A stretch of DNA of 24,864 bases, taken from the IMG/VR virus record IMGVR_UViG_3300011114_000643, positions 1 to 24,864 of that record; one strand, 5' to 3'. The notes under the pieces are model-generated. The model worked only from the letters and a program-made list of their open reading frames with translations, was not told the origin of the DNA and searched no databases. The DNA comes from a virus. Shown in pieces: positions 2,981 to 6,998 of the stretch. Both the position numbers and the translations under genes were made by a program. Numbering within the stretch: position 1 is the first letter of the stretch; the number at the start of each line of letters is the position of its first letter.

Positions 2981-3325
2981 ATGAGCACACAGAACGAAGC
3001 CCACGGGGACGAAGACCAGCGCCGCGAATTGACGGAAAGAGAGTTGGAGTTGGCGCTTGAGGAAATCATTGACACCATCCTCGACCACGGTGGCTACCCA
3101 GCACAAGGTCGCCGTCAATTCGATTTGTACGAATGGCTTATCGAAGAGCGCGATTCATCCTACGCCTGGGAAATGTACGTCTGCTCTCTGAGCGGCAATA
3201 CCCGCGCACTAGAAATCCGCATTGAACGCGAACTAAAACTAGTTGAGGCATTGCTTGATAAACACCTGACGGGTTCCGACATGGTGCAAGACTTGGCAAA
3301 TCAACGCGCCTCGGAAAACAAATGA
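2981..3325 (+). CDS. Hypothetical acidic helical phage protein
   Basis: A 114-residue protein, highly charged and acidic, with a long helical segment (RRELTERELELALEEIIDTI) and a second helical half. GGAG sits 5 nt before the ATG. The stop overlaps the next start as ATGA, so translation is probably coupled. No catalytic or binding motif is recognised. Its position just before the Sak4-like gene suggests an early role in DNA metabolism or host takeover, but this cannot be resolved from the sequence. Confidence 0.75.
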   Translation: MSTQNEAHGDEDQRRELTERELELALEEIIDTILDHGGYPAQGRRQFDLYEWLIEERDSSYAWEMYVCSLSGNTRALEIRIERELKLVEALLDKHLTGSDMVQDLANQRASENK

Positions 3326-3402
3326 GCATCAGCGAGATTTGCTCTTACGCTTGCGCCATCGGAGCGGTGGTTTGTTTCTTAATCTTGATCTGGGGAAATT
3401 AA
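3322..3402 (+). CDS. 26-residue single-span membrane peptide
   Basis: This tiny ORF begins in an ATGA overlap with the upstream gene and ends in TAA directly abutting the ATG of the Sak4-like gene. Residues 7-24 (CSYACAIGAVVCFLILIW) form one membrane span. Its last codons carry the GGGGA ribosome site for the downstream gene, so it may act mainly as a translation relay. It could equally be a real membrane peptide, and I cannot decide. Confidence 0.5.
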   Translation: MSISEICSYACAIGAVVCFLILIWGN

Positions 3403-4649: not shown

Positions 4650-5771
4650 ATGACCATGCTGCCAGAGCGTCAGAACTCGACCGTCACCGCGATCTTCAAG
4701 CACTACGAGAAGGTTGCGGAGGCGGGGCAGCGCCCGCACCTGGGCGCGTCCGAGATCGGGCAGGAGTGCGAACGGGCCTTGTGGCTGTCGTTTCGCTGGG
4801 CCAAGCAGCCCGATTTTGATGGGCGGATTCTGCGGTTGTTTGAGTCCGGGAACCTTGCAGAACCGCGTCTGATCGAAAATCTCAGGGCAATTGGGGTCGA
4901 GGTATCAGACCGGGACGAGGACGGCAACCAATGGCGGTTCAAGGCTATTGGTGGGCATTTTGGCGGGAGCATGGACGGCGCTGCTCTGGGGTTACCGGAA
5001 GCACCCAAGACCTGGCACGTTTTGGAATTCAAGACCGCAAACGCCAAGAGTTTTGCGGCAATGCAAAAAAAAGGGGTAAAGGATTCCAAGAACCAGCATT
5101 GGGTTCAGATGCAATTGTATATGGGCTGGGCCGGTCTTGACCGGGCAATGTATATGGTCGTGAACAAGGACACCGACGATATTTATGCCGAGCGGATTGA
5201 GGCTGATCCGGCAGCGTTCAAGGCGGCGCTGGCAAAGGCCGAGCGGATCATTACTGCGCCGGAACCAGCAATCCCGCTGGGCGAGACTGCGGCGGCGTTT
5301 GTGTGCAAGTTTTGCAGGTTCAAGGGGCAATGCCACGAAACGGAAGCCCCGCAGGTTAACTGCCGTACCTGCGCCCACGCAACCCCAGAACTGGGCGACG
5401 ATGCCCGGTGGAGTTGTGCGGAGCACAAAAAGGATCTGACGGTAGACGAGCAACGGGCGGGATGCCGCGACCACCGGCACATCCCTGTCCTGCTGGGCCG
5501 GTTTGCCGAACTTGTGGACGCGAACGAGAATAACCTGCTGACGTACAAAAACAAGCTCACCGGAACCGAGTTCCAGCAGCCGGTTTACGGGAGCCAGGAG
5601 ATCACCGACTGCCAAGATAAGCGGATGCTGGGCGACGAGTTTACGACCGCAATGAAGATCGAGATGGATGCAACGATTGTTCCGAATTCAGCGTTTGAGG
5701 GAATGACAGACGATATCCCGTGGACGAATGGCGAAATGATTATCACAGGGAGCAAACAATGGAAAAAGTAA
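4650..5771 (+). CDS. Cas4-like PD-(D/E)XK exonuclease
   Basis: A 373-residue nuclease. The catalytic core is GGSMDG with D109, EFK with E126 and K128, and the helix motif QMQLYM (Q153, Q155). C40 plus C219-x2-C222-x5-C228 match the four-cysteine arrangement that holds a 4Fe-4S cluster in Cas4/AddB/Dna2-type nucleases. A second cysteine set (C238, C241, C256, C272; NCRTCAHA ... SCAEH ... GCRDH) probably binds zinc. It likely resects DNA for Sak4/SSB-mediated recombination. The start is set at 4650; a GTG at 4632, inside the upstream gene, is in frame but lacks a ribosome site. The stop overlaps the next gene by 13 nt. Confidence 0.88.
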   Translation: MTMLPERQNSTVTAIFKHYEKVAEAGQRPHLGASEIGQECERALWLSFRWAKQPDFDGRILRLFESGNLAEPRLIENLRAIGVEVSDRDEDGNQWRFKAIGGHFGGSMDGAALGLPEAPKTWHVLEFKTANAKSFAAMQKKGVKDSKNQHWVQMQLYMGWAGLDRAMYMVVNKDTDDIYAERIEADPAAFKAALAKAERIITAPEPAIPLGETAAAFVCKFCRFKGQCHETEAPQVNCRTCAHATPELGDDARWSCAEHKKDLTVDEQRAGCRDHRHIPVLLGRFAELVDANENNLLTYKNKLTGTEFQQPVYGSQEITDCQDKRMLGDEFTTAMKIEMDATIVPNSAFEGMTDDIPWTNGEMIITGSKQWKK

Positions 5772-5929
5772 TCAAGCCTTGTCCGTTCTGCGATTACGAT
5801 GATCCTGAAGTTGACGAAATCGAAATCGGAATAATCGCGGTGTGCTGCCCAGAATGCAATGCAATTGGGCCGAGGAACAAGGCGGCGCAGTCCCTGCGTG
5901 ATGCCATTGCTAAATGGAATTGCGAATGA
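5759..5929 (+). CDS. Lar-like zinc-finger protein
   Basis: A 56-residue protein with CPFC at 8-11 and CCPEC at 29-33, followed by GPRNK and a final AIAKWN. This is the pattern of Lar-family restriction-alleviation proteins: two CxxC knuckles and a C-terminal WN. Lar proteins modulate type I restriction, but many phage members are annotated on the zinc pattern alone, so that activity is not established here. The start is chosen by GGGAG 6 nt upstream. Confidence 0.75.
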   Translation: MEKVIKPCPFCDYDDPEVDEIEIGIIAVCCPECNAIGPRNKAAQSLRDAIAKWNCE

Positions 5930-6205: not shown

Positions 6206-6354
6206 CCCAAGCCGAGAAACTGCAAGCCGCCATCGAATGGCTCGACAACAGATGGGTTTTGCATCCTGAAAATAGGGTTCCGAAACTCAAAGAGCCGTTA
6301 CCGGAGGTCTTTACATGGACTCCGAAAGTGCTAAAGAAAGGAGCGAAGAAATGA
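6202..6354 (+). CDS. Hypothetical 50-residue phage protein
   Basis: Begins in an ATGA overlap with the preceding gene (MTQAEKLQAAIEWLDNRW) and ends in an ATGA overlap with the next. It has an N-terminal helix, a proline-rich middle and a basic tail (KKGAKK). GGAGG lies upstream of the ATG. No family is recognised. Confidence 0.65.
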   Translation: MTQAEKLQAAIEWLDNRWVLHPENRVPKLKEPLPEVFTWTPKVLKKGAKK

Positions 6355-6506
6355 TCGAAGTCAAACTGCTTGGCCCGAAAGACGATCAATGGGCCGTAAT
6401 AAGCCTTGGTAGCCAATGGCTGGCGACAACGAGGGCAGTTTATGCGGTGGCGGTGAAAGCTGCGATTGCCGCCGCTATCGCCCAGCAATCTACGCCGTCC
6501 AATTAG
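6351..6506 (+). CDS. Hypothetical 51-residue phage protein
   Basis: Starts in an ATGA overlap, with GGAG 7 nt upstream. Residues 1-25 look like two or three beta strands (MIEVKLLGPK...WAVISLGSQWLA), followed by an Ala-rich helix (AVAVKAAIAAAIAQQ). It is the last gene before the only sizeable non-coding gap of the early operon. Confidence 0.65.
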   Translation: MIEVKLLGPKDDQWAVISLGSQWLATTRAVYAVAVKAAIAAAIAQQSTPSN

Positions 6507-6562
6507 GAATAACAGCAATCAAAATTTGAAAATTGAGCAACCAGGAGCGTTGTAGTTGATAT

Positions 6563-6664
6563 GGGGCGGTCTTCACGATGCGGGGATCGTAGCTGGAGCA
6601 AGGTGGGCAATCCTTGCAAAGCAACAGAAGGCTTAGAGGGGTTCAACTCCCCGCCGCTCCCCCA
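6563..6664 (+). ncRNA. tRNA/tmRNA-like RNA candidate
   Basis: In the gap 6507-6683, GGGGCGG (6563-6569) pairs over 7 bp, with one G.U, with CCGCTCC (6654-6660). A discriminator C and an encoded CCA (6662-6664) follow. Just before the 3' acceptor strand is a T-arm-like hairpin, GGGG (6638-6641) / CCCC (6649-6652), with loop TTCAACT (6642-6648), the tRNA/tmRNA consensus; its basal pair is an A-G mismatch. Inner hairpins are ACGAT/ATCGT (6575-6590), GCAAGG/CCTTGC (6598-6617) and AAGC/GCTT (6619-6634). At 102 nt it is too long for a normal tRNA, too short for tmRNA, and no canonical anticodon loop is seen. The 3' end is strikingly like that of tmRNA. Confidence 0.45.
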
Positions 6665-6683
6665 AAACTACAGGAGAAACAAA

Positions 6684-6998
6684 ATGAACAAGCAGCACCC
6701 CTTTATCAAAAAAGTAACGTGGGTTCCTACGGGCGCTCCCGCCAGCTTCAAGTTTTTTGACCCGCTGCGGGCGGCTCACGTTGCGGGTGGGGAATGGTCG
6801 CCCACAAGCCTCGTCTTGATGGTGCGCGAGGAAGACGGTGGCGTGTGGTTTATGCAGCGCGAGTGCGTCAAGTTCACCCCGGCGCAAGTTTTCCGGCGCT
6901 ATCGCCGGATGCGGGTGGGGCGCTACGAGCGGAAGGTAAACGCGCCGATCGCGGAAATGAAGCGGTGGCTGAACAGTATTGATTTGGGAAACCAATGA
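6684..6998 (+). CDS. Hypothetical 104-residue phage protein
   Basis: First gene after the RNA-like gap. The ATG at 6684 has AGGAG 8 nt upstream. The protein looks mainly beta (VTWVPTGAPASFKFFDPL, SLVLMVREEDGGVWFMQREC) followed by a basic helical part (FRRYRRMRVGRYERK). The end overlaps the next gene as ATGA. An upstream in-frame ATG at 6561 would read through the RNA-like element and is not credible. No known function. Confidence 0.75.
   Translation: MNKQHPFIKKVTWVPTGAPASFKFFDPLRAAHVAGGEWSPTSLVLMVREEDGGVWFMQRECVKFTPAQVFRRYRRMRVGRYERKVNAPIAEMKRWLNSIDLGNQ

Follow-up and report, generated by a model that had tools for sequence, protein, structure and literature searches.

A conserved, non-coding RNA with a tRNA-type end in the early operon of a freshwater phage, and TLD-only tmRNA-like RNAs in other phages

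The window analysed here is the DNA of a freshwater phage (24,864 bases, a whole IMG/VR viral record). Its early-gene operon holds a 102-nt RNA that is conserved, non-coding and non-decoding and has a tRNA-type end. This RNA is tentatively read as a discrete, non-decoding tRNA mimic carried in the early-operon transcript, which may serve as a decoy for host factors. Unannotated RNAs that resemble the tRNA-like domain (TLD) of tmRNA, without the rest of that molecule, were also found in other phages. The parts of the window RNA are as follows.

6563–6664, + strand: tRNA-like RNA, 102 nt, with an encoded CCA end; acceptor, T-arm and CCA present, found in three phages, non-coding by frame
6563–6569, + strand: 5' strand of the acceptor-like stem, GGGGCGG, with G3.U70 formed with 6658; GGAGCGG (A3-U70) in relative L005 keeps the pair
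6575–6590, + strand: hairpin A, ACGAT-GCGGGG-ATCGT; an A-U to G-U change in relative L004 keeps the pair; other foldings are possible
6598–6617, + strand: hairpin B, GCAAGG-TGGGCAAT-CCTTGC; 8-nt loop, no U33, invariant in the three copies
6618–6637, + strand: variable linker with a conserved AACAGAA; an AAGC/GCTT hairpin in the window copy only
6638–6652, + strand: T-arm, GGGG (6638–6641), TTCAACT (6642–6648), CCCC (6649–6652); A6637.G6653 mismatch at 49-65
6654–6660, + strand: 3' strand of the acceptor-like stem, CCGCTCC
6661–6664, + strand: discriminator C73 (6661) and CCA (6662–6664), the same in L004 and L005

The acceptor strands pair at all seven positions, with G3.U70 as the single wobble. 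The T-stem has four G-C pairs, its fifth pair being the A.G mismatch, and the T-loop fits the UUCRANY of canonical tRNA. The combination was measured against 4103 dinucleotide-shuffled windows, both strands being searched for a T-arm, a 7-bp acceptor with its 5' strand 45–99 nt upstream of the T-arm and at most one G.U, and NCCA. It was expected 0.00024 times per shuffled window and occurs exactly once in the real one; it is not a product of chance. The original observation of these elements in about 102 nt was confirmed; its interpretation was supported in part, the likeness to tRNA or tmRNA being confined to the acceptor and T-arm half.

ARAGORN found no gene in any of the three copies or in the whole window, and Rfam gave no match in the window at gathering thresholds. 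The best permissive Rfam match of the RNA was tRNA-Sec (RF01852), with 22 bits against a gathering score of 47, and the tmRNA models in Rfam did not match it even at an E-value of 10. It contains no 5-bp stem with a 7-nt loop and U33, no D-arm in register and no mRNA-like domain; hairpin B (6-bp stem, 8-nt loop) cannot be an anticodon arm because its loop is of eight nucleotides and lacks U33. The RNA is neither tRNA nor tmRNA, and the suggestion of an odd long tRNA is disfavoured by the missing anticodon arm and the ARAGORN result.

With tmRNA (ssrA; RF00023 and relatives) the RNA shares a GGGGC.G/C.GCUCC acceptor with G3.U70, a UUCRANU T-loop and CCA, but it lacks the tag reading frame, the pseudoknots and the GG.UUCGAC D-loop, and has C73. 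Alanine tRNA has a similar G3.U70 acceptor (two of the three copies), T-arm and CCA (encoded in the window RNA); the window RNA differs in its length of 102 nt, in C73 and in having no anticodon arm or D-arm in register. The mascRNA/menRNA family (RF01684) and viral 3' tRNA-like structures are likewise non-decoding, with acceptor, T-arm and CCA, but they matched only weakly and in part (14.5 and 12.2 bits), far under their gathering thresholds, and their context is eukaryotic or in viral 3' UTRs, unlike that of the window RNA.

The RNA also occurs on two further IMG/VR contigs (L001/L004 and L002/L005), which brings the copies found to three. Outside the linker, 79 of 82 positions are identical between the window and either relative; over the full RNA the values are 94/103 and 93/103. 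Only 61 of 104 third codon positions (59%) are identical in the gene that follows, and a degraded tRNA, one of the earlier suggestions, is disfavoured by this comparison. A one-base indel near the middle of the RNA is compensated after the CCA, so that about 26 codons are shifted in frame between copies while the DNA is nearly identical. As the same bases stand in different reading frames, selection acts on RNA or DNA and not on a peptide. G3.U70, the alanine identity pair, is present in the window and L004, and C73 in all three copies; since L005 has A3-U70, that pair is not conserved. A profile of the three copies run against all collected loci gave no further homologues, and blastn and tblastn searches of phages and plasmids with the locus and the downstream protein gave no relatives. 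With a looser motif (GTGGGCAA followed by the T-arm), the other matches in viral contigs were ordinary tRNAs or unrelated sequence.

All 22 proposed pairs (acceptor, hairpins A and B, T-arm) are kept in the three copies. Two pairs vary, each on one side with pairing retained (G3.U70 becomes A3-U70 in L005, and an A-U of hairpin A becomes G-U in L004). Three copies are too few for compensatory changes. Acceptor and T-arm pairing, the loss of which in related phages had been named beforehand as a possible refutation, is preserved in both relatives. Of three internal hairpins originally described, ACGAT/ATCGT and GCAAGG/CCTTGC are intact in all copies, whereas AAGC/GCTT (6619–6634) is found in the window copy only. 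The minimum free energy (MFE) fold of the window copy has −40.3 kcal/mol, against −38.7 with the acceptor and T-arm forced; both this fold and the RNAalifold consensus of the three copies are structures other than the tRNA-like one, and the z-score against shuffled sequences is only −1.0. The tRNA-like fold is not singled out by thermodynamics alone.

In the operon, the RNA is preceded by genes for a Sak4-like annealing protein, a single-strand binding protein, a Cas4-type exonuclease and a Lar-like protein (restriction alleviation; 5720–5929). Its immediate neighbours are listed below.

6315–6506, + strand: upstream gene, 63 aa; L004 and L005 have different genes in this place
6507–6555, + strand: tail of another reading frame, closing with LKIEQPGAL and a stop; it resembles how the upstream gene of L004 ends and is a recombination remnant
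6684–6998, + strand: downstream gene, 104 aa, function unknown; it accompanies the RNA and is 81–82% identical in L004/L005

An AGGAG stands at the proper distance from the ATG at 6684. The 104-aa protein has no relative in Pfam, PHROG or PDB, and its predicted structure (pLDDT 42) was unusable. L014 and L023, closely related to the window phage (exonuclease 96–99% identical), lack both the RNA and the downstream gene, which marks the pair as an accessory module. Outside the RNA, TGTAGTT (6551–6557) can pair with AACTACA (6666–6672) beside the ribosome-binding site of the 104-aa gene; the relatives keep only a shorter GTTG/CAAC. A promoter in the conserved 38 nt upstream of the RNA was rejected, the stretch being the end of a reading frame. 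Origin as an integrase attachment site is unlikely, since conservation extends to the 5' half and interior of the RNA.

A weak blastn match led to Arthrobacter phage Elezi, in which an RNA of some 77 nt, absent from the annotation, has the acceptor and T-arm of the window RNA. A search pattern was then used in which GGGGCNG, the T-loop with its flanking bases and CNGCTCC were fixed and the spacing was abnormal. At least 120 viral contigs matched; at least 106 matches were not called as tRNAs, and at least 86 of these were distinct, a few of them probably being chance matches or odd tRNAs. More than 80 distinct viral sequences were thus obtained, mostly TLD-only tmRNA-like RNAs of about 75–80 nt (about 78; L041–L157, for example L041:7635-7712, − strand; L084:4907-4984, + strand; L138:3264-3342, − strand). 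Almost all of the TLD-only RNAs found are missed by ARAGORN.

A typical TLD-only RNA has a G3.U70 acceptor, a GG.UUCGAC-type D-loop, an H2 helix that a small hairpin closes, a GAC spacer, the T-arm and A73. Pair 6-67, left free in the pattern, is complementary in 80 of the 86 distinct sequences among the matches listed, with one further G.U, and A73 is present in 81 of the same 86. An H2 helix of 6 bp or more occurs in 43 of 53 TLD-only RNAs, against 19% of shuffles. The D-loop motif GGNUUCGAC after the acceptor is nearly invariant in alignment A3 and less strict across the broader collection (39 of the 86 distinct sequences among the matches listed). Aligning 12 sequences gave two-sided changes at 13 of 22 pairs and a covariation score of 0.587; shuffled controls scored 0.143 and slid controls at most 0.136.

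A covariance model of the TLD-only RNAs (R1) found further loci, the best 58 scoring 38.5–87 bits. Unannotated TLD-only RNAs lie within tRNA gene clusters of the Streptomyces phages Shaeky (L234:801-879, 85 bits with R1) and LuckySocke (L233:801-878, 75 bits); both retain G3.U70 despite changes in other acceptor pairs. The Elezi RNA (L026:848-924) scores 39.8 bits with R1, has no anticodon and lies just 5' of small genes and an HNH endonuclease gene at the genome end. At 13 of the 86 distinct loci among the matches listed, genes for the head maturation protease, the major capsid protein or both adjoin the TLD-only RNA on its own strand, and at five it lies between the two. Loci with the RNA beside such genes are L041, L056, L090, L116 and L154, and also L153, L123, L124, L157 and L066.

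The pattern scan of 398 bacterial genomes (one phylum) gave two matches, both ordinary tRNA-Ala. The TLD-only model found none in 694 bacterial genomes, in each of which only 11–15 candidates were scored; this negative is therefore weak, and the pattern scan is the better one. A pattern of acceptor, D-loop and T-loop gave five chance matches in bacterial genomes, none tRNA-like. The matches of a first acceptor pattern were for the most part ordinary tRNAs, tRNA-Met among them, with motifs that lay upstream by chance. It also surfaced two tRNA-like sequences with no ARAGORN call, L030:9653-9741 (− strand) and L032 at about 3278–3362 (+ strand), the latter with acceptor GGGAGCG/CGCTCCC and an 8-nt loop where the anticodon loop would be.

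Other tRNA- or tmRNA-like sequences were noted on the way. Longer G3.U70 tRNA-like RNAs (82–106 nt) with other interiors (for example one with GGAAAGCCCG) are possible further subfamilies (L076, L092, L141, L149, L181, L186, L195 and L203; L161 and L168; L146, L187, L219 and L221). Mesorhizobium phage Cp1R7A-A1 carries an unannotated permuted tmRNA of alphaproteobacterial type (L027:796-1181, 112 bits). In Mycobacterium phage Peanam a tmRNA-like 3' end (T-arm and acceptor strand; L235, about 801–832), which is probably an attachment site in ssrA, lies 88 nt 5' of a tyrosine integrase gene.

In the literature searched, one TLD-only case is named, that of mycobacteriophage DS6A, by Hudson et al. 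(2014; PMC4131195). The same text, citing Mao et al. (2009), has TLD-only RNA inhibiting tmRNA strongly, whether chargeable or not, perhaps by titration of SmpB. Phage tmRNAs detected with ARAGORN are counted in PMC9004378; such counts would miss nearly all TLD-only RNAs found here. The literature searched gave no account of these RNAs as a common phage class, which does not prove that none exists.

The window RNA shares with the TLD-only RNAs the tmRNA-type acceptor, G3.U70 (two of three copies), the T-arm and the lack of an anticodon and of a tag. The original prediction of a tmRNA-like 3' end holds to that extent; it does not carry over to the D-loop motif, H2 and A73 of the phage RNAs. In place of GGNUUCGAC the acceptor is followed by TCTTCACG, the discriminator is C73, and no conserved helix ends 3 nt before the T-stem in the three copies. 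The DS6A RNA, compared by description, is also phage-encoded, with tmRNA-type acceptor and T-arm and neither mRNA-like domain nor anticodon; the window RNA is longer than the TLD-only set found here. R1 aligns it end to end (6563–6661) as the sole match in the record, with 16–19.1 bits, while ordinary tRNAs score 13–18 in two named phages and about 22–31 elsewhere. Given the missing elements and this score, the window RNA was not filed as a TLD-only member. It is a distant outlier beside that set and may work like a member of it.

The reading as a tRNA mimic draws on the chance expectation (0.0002), the 22 retained pairs, the conserved core, the frame-changing indels, G3.U70 in two of the three copies and the absence of a tRNA or tmRNA call and, by analogy, on the existence of phage tRNA-like RNAs with this acceptor and T-arm and no mRNA-like domain. 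It has against it the structure preferred by the folding programs, C73 in all copies, A3-U70 in L005, the lack of the SmpB-contacting D-loop motif and of H2, the tRNA-level R1 score and a sample of three copies. The main rival, somewhat unlikely in our judgement, is a cis-acting element of the early operon mRNA that regulates the downstream gene. It would be a tRNA-like leader or processing punctuation before the 104-aa gene, cut by RNase P or another nuclease, or controlling the ribosome-binding site just after the CCA. The RNA is always 5' of this gene, whose ATG follows the CCA by about 20 nt, while the upstream gene changes, and the outer pairing lies beside AGGAG. However, that stem is poorly conserved, and a cis element needs neither an encoded CCA nor a canonical T-loop.

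It is unlikely that the RNA is a phage sRNA structured as RNAalifold predicts (a 5' hairpin and one long hairpin), acting by base pairing or protein binding and tRNA-like by accident. The invariant internal segments suit this reading, as does the fact that its fold is the MFE and consensus structure for each of the three copies, but the folding energy is unremarkable against shuffles, this fold too lacks support from covariation, and acceptor, T-arm and CCA are improbable together by chance. Rather more doubtful is descent, by decay or strong divergence, from an alanine tRNA or the tRNA-like domain of a tmRNA, with loss of the D-loop motif, H2 and A73. The acceptor type (GGGGC.G/C.GCTCC with G3.U70) and T-arm, identical to those of viral TLD-only RNAs, and the end-to-end R1 alignment point that way, and in many viral TLD-like RNAs the D-loop and length vary, but the score is no higher than that of ordinary tRNAs, and so strongly conserved an RNA speaks against decay. 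That the stretch codes for an N-terminal extension of the 104-aa protein is highly improbable. Although frames are open in all three phages (6561–6998; L004, 2800–3312; L005, 2851–3312), the shifted codons turn near-identical DNA into unrelated peptides, and AGGAG is properly spaced for ATG 6684. An unusual decoding tRNA, tRNA-Sec-like or with an intron, is largely refuted, since the tRNA-Sec match, the best in Rfam, has under half of the gathering score, begins at 6583 and breaks the acceptor pairs, and the anticodon-loop and ARAGORN results are negative.

For the tRNA mimic, the following course is envisaged. Host tRNA-maturation enzymes would excise the RNA from the mRNA between two genes, RNase P cutting the 5' end and 3' exonucleases trimming to the encoded CCA. 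The product would fold as an acceptor/T-arm stack with a CCA tail, without anticodon or mRNA-like domain, and could occupy host factors that recognise this part of a tRNA or tmRNA, acting as an early decoy during infection. Prime candidate targets would be AlaRS, EF-Tu and SmpB of the alanine/tmRNA pathway, or a defence nuclease directed at tRNA. A decoy or regulatory role would be our best guess. The reported inhibition of tmRNA makes a decoy plausible for TLD-only RNAs; as the window RNA lacks the SmpB-contact elements, another factor that reads acceptor, T-arm and CCA is more likely in its case. A wider reading, possible though on the doubtful side, is that phages encode a large, unrecognised set of tRNA/tmRNA mimics, without anticodon or mRNA-like domain, through which they manipulate the host's ribosome rescue or its handling of tRNA. 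On that view the window RNA would be a far-diverged form that dropped the SmpB-contact elements, kept the acceptor/T-arm/CCA end and is aimed at a different factor.

If expressed, the mimic could give a phage a small, well-defined RNA with which to turn off or redirect one of the host's translation factors. The wider collection of viral sequences, mostly TLD-only, matters more: whether phages use RNA decoys against trans-translation is now a directly testable question.
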